A stretch of DNA of 64,000 nucleotides from Acinetobacter zhairuonensis (GTDB lineage: Bacteria; Pseudomonadota; Gammaproteobacteria; Pseudomonadales; Moraxellaceae): NCBI RefSeq assembly GCF_022601715.1, contig NZ_JAKVIM010000006.1:1-64000 (forward strand), given 5' to 3'. Position 1 is the stretch's first letter; the number at the start of each line of letters is the position of its first letter. The notes beneath the pieces were generated by a model that had not been told where the DNA came from, did no database searches, and saw only the letters and a program-made list of their open reading frames with translations. The translations under genes and the position numbers were made by a program. This document shows positions 17,142 to 18,571 of this stretch, piece after piece.

Positions 17142-17162
17142 GTGAAATAAAGGTTGTCAAAC

Positions 17163-17270
17163 GTGGTAATAAAGCGTATTTTTAATTTCAGACACTTTTT
17201 TGATGAAACAAAGATGTTAAAGCAACCTTTAATCGCAAACGCTTATTTTTATTTCTGGCAGTTTAGATAA
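17163..17270 (+). CDS. Aromatic-rich leader peptide 1 of the DAHP synthase gene
   Basis: A short ORF upstream of the DAHP synthase gene. From the ATG at 17214 it reads MLKQPLIANAYFYFWQFR; from the GTG at 17163, which has AAAGG about 9 nt upstream, it is 35 codons and adds four more Phe. Six of the last nine codons are Tyr, Phe or Trp, followed directly by TAA at 17268-17270. One base later the attenuator hairpins begin. This is the layout of pheA/trp-type attenuation: ribosome stalling on aromatic codons when the charged tRNAs are scarce would alter RNA folding downstream. Coding is inferred from composition and position; the start is uncertain. Confidence 0.7.
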   Translation: MVIKRIFNFRHFFDETKMLKQPLIANAYFYFWQFR

Positions 17271-17347
17271 TTGCCTAAACGCGTTTGGGCAAAATAAAGG
17301 TTGCCCACCAGTTAATACCTGATCGGCAACCCCGGTCAGGTTTTTTT
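17271..17347 (+). promoter_or_regulatory. Transcription attenuator (hairpin, antiterminator and terminator)
   Basis: Three alternative structures follow leader peptide 1. Hairpin 1 pairs TTGCCTAAAC (17271-17280) with GTTTGGGCAA (17283-17292). An antiterminator can pair GGTTGCC (17299-17305) with GGCAACC (17325-17331). The terminator pairs CCTGATCGG (17318-17326) with CCGGTCAGG (17332-17340), loop CAACC, followed by seven T (17341-17347). The antiterminator uses the right end of the terminator's left arm and its loop, so the two exclude each other. This is the expected geometry of a ribosome-mediated attenuator. Confidence 0.75.
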
Positions 17348-17383
17348 ATGCTTTGTTTTTTATAATTTTTTTAGGAGATTCAC

Positions 17384-17488
17384 ATGTACACATTTAACAC
17401 TTCATATTTTAGCAACGGTTATTGGTTTTACTTTAGTCAGTTTATGACTCAATCCTTATCATCCCATAGACCCAAAACGCACAAATAA
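17384..17488 (+). CDS. Aromatic-rich leader peptide 2 of the DAHP synthase gene, 34 aa
   Basis: A second short ORF lies past the terminator of the first leader. AGGAGA (17373-17378) gives a strong ribosome binding site for the ATG at 17384. Ten of its first 20 residues are aromatic, including the run SYFSNGYWFYFSQF; the remainder is not aromatic. The YWFYFSQF core resembles YFYFWQF of leader peptide 1, so one may be a duplicate of the other. It ends 36 bp before the DAHP synthase start. Its position after the intrinsic terminator means it cannot act on that terminator; control of translation or of Rho access downstream is more likely. Confidence 0.75.
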   Translation: MYTFNTSYFSNGYWFYFSQFMTQSLSSHRPKTHK

Positions 17489-17490
17489 AA

Positions 17491-17527
17491 GATCGGACTG
17501 AACAACAGTCCAAAGGAAAGACCGATG
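17491..17527 (+). promoter_or_regulatory. Hairpin over the start of the DAHP synthase gene
   Basis: GGACTG (17495-17500) pairs with CAGTCC (17506-17511), loop AACAA, directly before the ribosome binding site AAAGGAAAG. An alternative outer stem ATCGG (17492-17496) / CCGAT (17522-17526) would include the AT of the start codon and hold the ribosome binding site in the enclosed loop. No T run follows, so this is not an intrinsic terminator. It could couple leader peptide 2 translation to synthase translation. Confidence 0.45.
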
Positions 17528-18571
17528 AACGCTCTAAATACTGCACTACAACATCAACCGACTTCACAAGAAACATTATTGAGTTTGCCTCAGCAACTCA
17601 AAGTACAACTTCCTCTTTCTGCATCACTTGCGGCTCAGATTTCCGAACATCGTCAAACTATTCAAAACATTCTGGCTGGCACAGATCAACGCCTTTTGGT
17701 CATTACTGGACCTTGTTCTATTCATGATCCTGTTGCAGCTTTGGAATACGCGCAAAAATTACAACATTTACAAGCGCAAGTTTCTGATCAAATTTTTCTC
17801 GTAATGCGTGCTTATATTGAAAAACCACGTACAACAGTAGGCTGGAAAGGCTTTATGTATGATCCTGATCTAGATGGGTCATCAGACTTACAAGCAGGTC
17901 TAGAACAGTCACGCCAACTTTATTTACATATTATTGAAATGGGTTTACCGATTGCGAGTGAGATTCTAAGCCCGATGGCAACGGCTTACTTTGATGATTT
18001 GCTGGCTTGGGGTGCAATTGGTGCACGTACCAGCGAATCCCAAATTCACCGTGAAATTGCAAGTCAAATGCCATACAGCATTGGTTTTAAAAATGGTACA
18101 GATGGATCAATCCAAATTGCATTGGATGCCATCCAATCCGCTTCAAATGCGCATCAGTTCATGGGAATGAGCCAGTCTGGTCTACCTTGCGTACTTCAAT
18201 CACGTGGCAATCCATTGGCGCATTTGATTTTACGTGGTTCAAATACTGGTCCTAATTATCAGGTAGAAGAAATCAATAAAATCAAAGCGAAAGTTAAAGG
18301 GGATTTACCTGCGCTAGTGATTGATTGTAGCCATGGGAATAGCAGCAAGAACCCTGCATTACAGCCAGAGGTGCTACGTCAAATTGTGAATGAACGTGCG
18401 AATACAAACGTCCGTGGTGTTATGTTGGAAAGTCATTTAGTTGAAGGCAATCAGAAGATTTCTTGCGACATGATCTATGGTCAATCTGTAACTGATGGCT
18501 GTATTGGTTGGGAGAAAACCGAACAACTCTTATTAGAAACGGCTGCGCAGTTGAAAGCACAGCAACACTAA
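17525..18571 (+). CDS. aroF: 3-deoxy-7-phosphoheptulonate (DAHP) synthase, 348 aa
   Basis: It condenses phosphoenolpyruvate and erythrose 4-phosphate to DAHP, the entry step of the shikimate pathway. It is a class I (AroF/AroG/AroH-type) enzyme of normal length, with GPCSIHD (about 61-67), the KPRTTVGWKGFMYDPDLDGS segment (about 101-120), GARTSESQIHRE (about 168-179) and CSHGNSSKNP near the C-terminus. The N-terminal extension before the barrel is that of feedback-regulated isoenzymes; which amino acid inhibits it cannot be read here. It is monocistronic, preceded by two aromatic-rich leader peptides and an attenuator, and followed by a terminator. The symbol is by family; aroG would be equally defensible. 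Confidence 0.93.
   Translation: MNALNTALQHQPTSQETLLSLPQQLKVQLPLSASLAAQISEHRQTIQNILAGTDQRLLVITGPCSIHDPVAALEYAQKLQHLQAQVSDQIFLVMRAYIEKPRTTVGWKGFMYDPDLDGSSDLQAGLEQSRQLYLHIIEMGLPIASEILSPMATAYFDDLLAWGAIGARTSESQIHREIASQMPYSIGFKNGTDGSIQIALDAIQSASNAHQFMGMSQSGLPCVLQSRGNPLAHLILRGSNTGPNYQVEEINKIKAKVKGDLPALVIDCSHGNSSKNPALQPEVLRQIVNERANTNVRGVMLESHLVEGNQKISCDMIYGQSVTDGCIGWEKTEQLLLETAAQLKAQQH

Follow-up and report, generated by a model that had tools for sequence, protein, structure and literature searches.

The DAHP synthase gene of Acinetobacter zhairuonensis is preceded by two short open reading frames rich in aromatic codons. DAHP synthase catalyzes the first step in aromatic amino acid synthesis, and the two upstream ORFs probably act as sensors, the first on completion of the transcript and the second on its translation. 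We propose that the gene is under a two-stage control in which transcription attenuation is followed by translation attenuation and both stages sense aromatic aminoacyl-tRNA. We consider this proposal likely, although by no means certain, and no experiment stands behind it. The sequences themselves show that both ORFs are present and conserved, that alternative pairings are possible and that codon choice is unusual in a second family, f21. The features are listed in Table 1, in which positions refer to the whole 64,000-nucleotide stretch of DNA that was analysed (the window).

Table 1. Predicted elements of the leader region and the DAHP synthase (DAHPS) gene in the window
Feature	Position	Strand	Remarks
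Putative promoter TTGTCA - 17 nt - TATTTT	17154..17182	+	9/12 consensus matches
Leader peptide 1, MLKQPLIANAYFYFWQFR-stop	17214..17270	+	Homologous ORF in 57/57 dereplicated Acinetobacter regions
Segment 1	17222..17231	+	Captures segment D in the window MFE fold; 80.4% of cells paired across species
Segment A (Trp-Gln-Phe codons)	17257..17263	+	Pairs with 17269-17275; 88.5% of cells paired, 57 sequences
Segment B	17271..17280	+	Partner C (17283-17292) once a ribosome covers A; 95.6% of cells paired
Segment C	17283..17292	+	Pairs with B, or 17287-17292 with 17301-17306 of D
Segment D, antiterminator 5' arm	17299..17306	+	D:E' 94.7% of cells paired
Segment E', antiterminator 3' arm	17325..17331	+	Overlaps terminator stem and loop
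Intrinsic terminator	17317..17347	+	Stem 17317-17326/17332-17341 and seven T; 99.6% of cells paired
Shine-Dalgarno AGGAG of leader peptide 2	17373..17377	+	GGAG-like stretch before ORF2 start in most alignment rows
Leader peptide 2 (ORF2), MYTFNTSYFSNGYWFYFSQFMTQSLSSHRPKTHK-stop	17384..17488	+	Aromatic-rich ORF between terminator and gene
ORF2 Tyr-Trp-Phe-Tyr-Phe codons, sequestering arm	17416..17434	+	Paired: 17416-17417, 17419-17429, 17431-17434
Hairpin GGACTG/CAGTCC, ORF2 to DAHPS Shine-Dalgarno	17495..17511	+	96.8% of cells paired; no U-run after
DAHPS Shine-Dalgarno (17512-17517), start codon (17525-17527), first bases	17512..17531	+	Predicted sequestered by ORF2 codons
DAHP synthase gene	17525..18571	+	NF009395 and TIGR00034 aroFGH cut-offs exceeded; AroG and AroH cut-offs not reached

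The gene is of the aroF/G/H kind by its family matches (Table 1), and the closest named relatives of its product are those of A. kanungonis (96% identity) and A. tandoii (94%). The same genome contains a second DAHP synthase gene (locus L002, reverse complement). The open stretch RFFSRFYWSFV-stop lies ~144-200 nt upstream of it, with six aromatic codons among nine and the stop 144 nt from the DAHP synthase match. No in-frame ATG, GTG or TTG start was found for this stretch in L002 of this genome, the only locus to which this result applies.

Leader peptide 1 is an 18-codon ORF that runs from its best start, ATG 17214, to the stop at 17268-17270, has a weak Shine-Dalgarno and ends AYFYFWQFR. 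Six aromatic codons lie beside the stop (Y17244, F17247, Y17250, F17253, W17256 and F17262), as a reading of the window from its sequence alone had pointed out. A cluster of six or more aromatic codons, Trp among them, within the nine before a stop is found at only two of the 3805 stop codons of the window, the other being at ~9.5 kb on the minus strand, and Markov-1 shuffles give such clusters with a mean of 0.175 per 64 kb and a maximum of 2. The bare pattern Tyr-Phe-Tyr-Phe-Trp occurs at two places in the genome, equal to its reversed control. The aromatic codons are conserved between species in all 57 dereplicated Acinetobacter regions, where the alignments consist of the window and named loci only. 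The leader ORF with clustered regulatory codons near the stop that an attenuator requires is thus present; its translation is not shown.

The putative promoter upstream of leader peptide 1 is partly invariant in the 57-sequence alignment (TTG and the final A of the first hexamer, TA and the final T of the second). Promoter-like sites between 16800 and 18800 are no commoner than in shuffles (3 against 5.3 expected), and the match alone is therefore not above chance. The scan also returns two 9/12 sites 3' of 17347 (17379-17408 and 17434-17462), and a TATAAT at 17361-17366, between the terminator and ORF2, has no -35 partner by eye. A promoter downstream of 17347, which would speak against attenuation, is not excluded.

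The RNA that follows the aromatic codons can adopt two alternative sets of structures. The first set consists of A:B (17257-17263/17269-17275), C:D (17287-17292/17301-17306) and the terminator, and the second consists of B:C (17271-17280/17283-17292) and D:E' (17299-17305/17325-17331). The sequence-only reading had described one hairpin, the antiterminator and the terminator, and all three exist, the antiterminator exactly as described. The hairpin starts at 17271, immediately next to the stop codon and not one base later, and the stem that leads to the seven T (17341-17347) has ten pairs instead of nine when the outer A-U is counted. The A:B and C:D pairings and the second ORF had gone unmentioned.

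Both the terminator and the mutually exclusive antiterminator are conserved across species, as attenuation requires. The stems persist across species, with 88.5-99.6% of cells paired, and compensating changes, which had been named as a check on the attenuator, are scarce because the stems are nearly invariant, so that covariation evidence is limited. One pair of the B:C stem varies as G-C, G-U and A-U among the 57 sequences, and the stem reaches a mean probability of 0.97 upon ribosome stalling. The C:D pairing is possible in 98% of cells in the same set, but its mean probability with a ribosome at the stop is only 0.25, and it is 0.0 in the window, where segment 1 rather than C captures segment D (0.9). 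The segment 1:D pairing was rejected as a universal part of the switch, since only 80.4% of its cells are paired. The fold of the whole leader is 4.8 sd better than that of dinucleotide shuffles, none of 200 being equally good, and terminator-like sites between 16800 and 18800 number 5 against 1.5 expected.

How would translation of leader peptide 1 select between the two sets? Upon starvation, a ribosome held at the Tyr, Phe and Trp codons would cover segment A and allow B to pair with C, which would leave D free to pair with E' and preclude the terminator. When charged tRNA is sufficient, the ribosome would reach the stop, D would be taken by segment 1 (in the window) or by C, and transcription would end at ~17347. 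This switch was modelled by folding the RNA to the moment before the 3' arm of the terminator is made, with a ribosome-sized mask in place, and scoring the best five pairs of the antiterminator. In the window, the antiterminator probability is 1.0 with the ribosome at the Trp codon, 0.13 with the ribosome at the stop and 0.14 without a ribosome, and the corresponding means of the 57 sequences are 0.93, 0.47 and 0.60. The probability still exceeds 0.5 in 54% of these sequences with the ribosome at the stop and in 65% without a ribosome. The window thus switches clearly, and the set as a whole only in part. Stalling that favors the antiterminator and completion that favors the terminator are observed in silico in Acinetobacter, whereas a similar crude test in f21 does not discriminate (0.89 stalled versus 0.85 at the stop; 33 of 66 sequences in the expected direction).

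Leader peptide 1 and its hairpins follow the logic of trp/pheA attenuation, a conclusion that is supported by the presence of the leader in every dereplicated region, the retention of the stems and the response of the window model, without expression data. The earlier interpretation of the locus as a transcription attenuator is borne out at this level. It is incomplete in that a second leader peptide and a translation level were left out.

The second ORF begins MYTFNTSYFSNGYWFYFSQF... and has a good Shine-Dalgarno. An aromatic-rich ORF2 was placed in all 121 Acinetobacter regions. The structural tests exclude 14 of them for lack of the anchor motif and 2 for lack of a start codon in range, and use the remaining 105 that pass both filters, which represent 95 distinct sequences. 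In f21, which is probably the Pseudomonadaceae as inferred from the P15 matches discussed below, ORF2 was placed in 67 of 70 regions, and the three regions without it (L219, L220 and L230) are matches at 54% identity, which corresponds to the paralogue level. The f21 ORF2 has a WRF core, with Trp in 66 of the 67 regions and, after it, Arg in 64 and Phe in 63; the one ORF2 without Trp (L194) was excluded to give a set of 66. A longer ORF2 pattern is found at one place in the genome of the window and its control at none. Beyond these two groups, ORF2 is present in three of four f36 genomes (L119, L120 and L235) and one of three f43 genomes (L117 and L243, one genome), and TGGCGATTTA is common to the ORF2 of L117, L119, L120 and L235.

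These counts are subject to several limits of sampling. The ORF2 finders choose the best aromatic-rich ORF in place, which biases them toward finding one, and the choice is doubtful in diverged rows such as L171. The start codons of L058, L059 and probably L190 were set too early in the ORF2, pairing, duplex, footprint, pN/pS and swap analyses; those of L058 and L059 are correct only in the alignment. The 121 Acinetobacter regions come from overlapping genomes and are not all distinct species. Forty of the Acinetobacter and 40 of the f21 regions were additions picked by hand from the match lists, and the remaining 30 f21 regions are the best matches. One record titled A. baumannii (L111) has leader peptides that belong to the guillouiae type (L109) and differ from those of pittii and calcoaceticus (L073, L079), and its title may be wrong.

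ORF2 is absent from the five f20 genomes (L236-L240). All five have leader 1 and a terminator before the DAHP synthase gene, and the leader reads FFWWFGYGFYFSQ in four of them and CSWWFGYGFYFSQ in L239. The same arrangement without ORF2 is found in two of three f43 and one of four f36 genomes, and these cases indicate that stage 1 can stand alone. They fit an alternative explanation in which only leader 1 regulates, by transcription attenuation, and ORF2 is a translated spacer that serves ribosome-polymerase coupling or prevents Rho termination downstream of the attenuator. Such a spacer would need neither aromatic codons in ORF2, nor rare codons after Trp in f21, nor the pairing with the DAHP synthase start that is described next, and we regard this explanation as unlikely.

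ORF2 codons are predicted to sequester the translation start of the DAHP synthase gene. A base-pair map averaged over the 95 Acinetobacter sequences, computed without a preselected structure, has its maximum (0.39) between the Trp-codon region of ORF2 and the DAHP synthase start. The duplex of this region with the Shine-Dalgarno and start has an energy of -15.5 kcal/mol in the window and -30.4 kcal/mol in L195, and the mean energy is -9.86 in Acinetobacter (n=95) and -14.23 in f21 (n=66). Pairing with ORF2's own start is weaker (means of -5.59 and -7.76, respectively), and the DAHP synthase start is the better partner in 78/95 Acinetobacter and 56/66 f21 sequences. Codon-shuffled copies of ORF2 reach only -5.37 and -8.26 with the DAHP synthase start. 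Sequestration is thus supported by computed pairing, with weak exceptions in A. baylyi (-3.5), where Trp is replaced by Tyr, and in the colistiniresistens type (-7.9). Given this replacement and the weak gene-start pairing, A. baylyi (L070:2870-2962) is a less suitable test organism than other species.

Evolutionary support for this long-range helix is uneven. In Acinetobacter, 77% of cells can pair, both sides change in only one of the 11 pairs, and the Acinetobacter structure does no better in covariation score than shuffles (239 of 500 as high). In the full sets, swapping partners between sequences gives a combination as good as the native one in 4 and 0 of 5000 permutations, but these figures ignore relatedness. 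After clustering, the Acinetobacter result is not significant (n=19; 766/5000 as good), and the attempt to prove covariation inside Acinetobacter thus failed on both counts. With one sequence per genus in other families (n=16, one intended genus representative being absent), 28/5000 permutations are as good; the combined set (n=35) yields 0/5000 but mixes base compositions. In the separate short hairpin between ORF2 and the DAHP synthase Shine-Dalgarno, four of six pairs have a double change, each in one Acinetobacter sequence.

We propose that this helix makes ORF2 a second sensor. Once the mRNA is complete, the Tyr-Trp-Phe codons of ORF2 would pair with the DAHP synthase Shine-Dalgarno and start codon and keep translation off. 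Upon starvation, a ribosome halted there, or at the aromatic codons immediately upstream, would hold the arm and free the start. If the ribosome proceeds to the ORF2 stop, the sequestering helix would close again. The stalling, the direction of its effect and the identity of the signals as three aromatic aminoacyl-tRNAs are inferences in both stages.

A ribosome footprint scan of the 95 Acinetobacter sequences is consistent with these steps. With the A-site at codons -9 to +6 around Trp, opening the start becomes 1.3 to 2.3 kcal/mol cheaper on average, whereas from +10 on there is no drop and, near the stop, a slight rise. In the window, the resting start costs 8.6 kcal/mol to open; placing the A-site at Trp reduces this by 4.7, and placing it at codon +15 adds 1.2. 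With the A-site at -2, the change is -2.65 for native and -0.30 for codon-shuffled ORF2 in Acinetobacter, and -1.01 versus +0.08 in f21; the resting costs are 6.9 versus 4.3 and 6.0 versus 5.3, respectively. These native and shuffled values come from random subsets (40 and 40 sequences in Acinetobacter, 45 and 30 in f21), and even in shuffled copies the start remains 4-5 kcal/mol costly to open. Taken singly, about half to two thirds of the Acinetobacter sequences exhibit the effect (a gain of >1 kcal/mol in 46/95 with the A-site at Trp and 63/95 at -4), as do 44% of 45 f21 sequences. A stalled ribosome that frees the start and a finishing ribosome that does not are thus seen in silico only, clearly in the window and in the means.

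The short distance from the end of ORF2 to the DAHP synthase start (29-44 nt in the 105 Acinetobacter regions and 15-48 nt in the 67 f21 regions) allows a different use of the same helix. Any passing ribosome would melt it, and ORF2 translation could promote DAHP synthase initiation by translational coupling, in which case aromatic starvation would lower, instead of raising, the synthesis of the enzyme. The aromatic codons, however, cluster exactly at the sequestering arm, as a stall sensor needs, and masking near the ORF2 end leaves the start closed in the folding model. Translational coupling therefore appears quite improbable to us, and sensing of aromatic aminoacyl-tRNA by ORF2 remains the preferred interpretation of the helix.

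Codon choice in f21 bears on the same question at the RNA level. After Trp, Arg is encoded by CGA in 62/64 cases and Phe by TTT in 63/63 cases, whereas the DAHP synthase stretches of the same f21 set use CGA for 35/1150 Arg and TTT for 8/141 Phe. The fixation of CGA-TTT makes the RNA-level claim directly testable. Rare Arg codons are also numerous in f21 ORF2 (L121-L230) away from the post-Trp place (CGA 102, AGA 34), and since CGA is common there too, a slow-codon role is possible besides pairing. In our proposal, the sensor codons of ORF2 are at the same time the anti-Shine-Dalgarno sequence, so that codon identity and RNA pairing would be selected in the same bases.

Could ORF2 instead encode a small functional protein, rich in aromatic residues, whose position is incidental? 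Its core is under clear protein-level constraint in Acinetobacter (pN/pS 0.185, from a simple count over related pairs). In f21, the constraint is weak (0.58) and fixation is found at the codon level. The peptides of the two groups have little in common except aromatic residues, and those of the window and L195 have no NCBIfam match at E 1. We give this possibility very little credence compared with a sensor function.

The final codons of ORF2 are conserved for a reason that was not found. In the 95 Acinetobacter sequences, the tail reads CTC in 84, AAA in 90 and TAA in 95, and at window positions 17478-17488 the codons of L032-L111 are almost invariant, mostly CTC AAA TAA. In the 66 f21 sequences, CGA stands at -5 in 61 and the stop is TAG in 54 (CGA ACA ... 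TAG). Pairing of the Acinetobacter tail with the Tyr-Phe-Ser codons (mean probability at most ~0.27) was rejected, because changes in the Ser codon are unmatched in the tail, and no other pairing partner or reason was identified in Acinetobacter or f21.

Attenuators of the trp/pheA type combine a leader ORF with clustered end-product codons, mutually exclusive hairpins and an intrinsic terminator. Stage 1 shares all of these elements. It departs from that type in the presence of Phe, Tyr and Trp codons in one leader, in its location before a DAHP synthase gene and in the second sensor that follows. Ribosome-mediated attenuation of this type is outlined in PMC2659441. Earlier work predicts or lists attenuators upstream of DAHP synthase genes in Shewanella (aroF and aroH) and in Vibrio, and a tyr-tRNA sensor is named for aroF (PMC2659441 and PMC1173090). 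These attenuators likewise precede a DAHP synthase gene or operon, and the accessible parts of these sources mention no second leader peptide or translation stage.

The position of stage 1 also coincides with a catalogued RNA. Rfam family RF00627 (P15, a Pseudomonas sRNA) matches 9 of 145 genomes of the order, six of them above the cut-off, and all nine loci lie upstream of a DAHP synthase gene. The eight of these loci that were read on the RNA strand each encode an aromatic leader peptide (e.g., GYFFYGYWFSQRRA-stop) and contain a terminator, for which reason P15 looks like a terminated leader transcript. P15 and the stage 1 leader of the window occupy the same place upstream of the gene; P15 ends at the terminator and excludes ORF2. 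The window scores 17.5 bits (E 1.5) against the P15 covariance model and does not reach the gathering score of 70, and L073 and L109 have no P15 match at E 0.5. P15 is listed among previously detected sRNAs in PMC2375449, and the main texts of PMC2965389 and PMC3460626 do not mention it. A mixed aromatic leader before DAHP synthase had been thought unusual in the sequence-only reading; given the other families of the order, P15, Shewanella and Vibrio, its rarity is less marked. What is new here is the second leader peptide, and stage 1 is a variant of classical attenuation at the P15 position.

Stage 2 has partial parallels in other systems. The Bacillus subtilis at operon resembles the present locus in that transcription-level control is followed by translation-level control and both respond to tRNA charging. 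Besides its T box, this operon has the rtpLP leader peptide. It differs in that its first stage is a T box and not a leader peptide, only Trp is sensed and the product is a regulator. The T box of this at (rtpA) operon is described in PMC11255114. In the LEU element of Actinobacteria, a run of leucine codons pairs with the Shine-Dalgarno box of leuA, and the element involves a pseudoknot; the section on leucine in PMC1262725 describes no preceding transcription attenuator. The definition of the LEU element (leucine codons, pseudoknot and leuA) is not met here, where aromatic codons precede a DAHP synthase gene. ermB also has two leader peptides before one gene, ermBL and ermBL2, which are reported to be necessary for drug induction. 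That system is drug-induced, and both of its leader peptides are described as part of translational attenuation (PMC8274638). The search, which was confined to the open-licence literature, returned no account of ORF2 or of serial leader peptides that each act at one of the two levels.

We propose in more general terms that tandem leader peptides sense one shared set of three charged tRNAs, at transcription termination and subsequently at translation initiation, that the sensor codons of ORF2 double as the anti-Shine-Dalgarno, and that this arrangement is general in Acinetobacter and f21 and patchy beyond them. We hold this wider statement with confidence only somewhat better than even. If the proposal is correct, a single gene would appear to be subject to two superimposed leader-peptide mechanisms, attenuation of transcription and attenuation of translation. 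The catalogued Pseudomonas "sRNA" P15 would be explained as a probable attenuator product. The two stages provide a concrete model for how entry into aromatic biosynthesis may be controlled in these bacteria.
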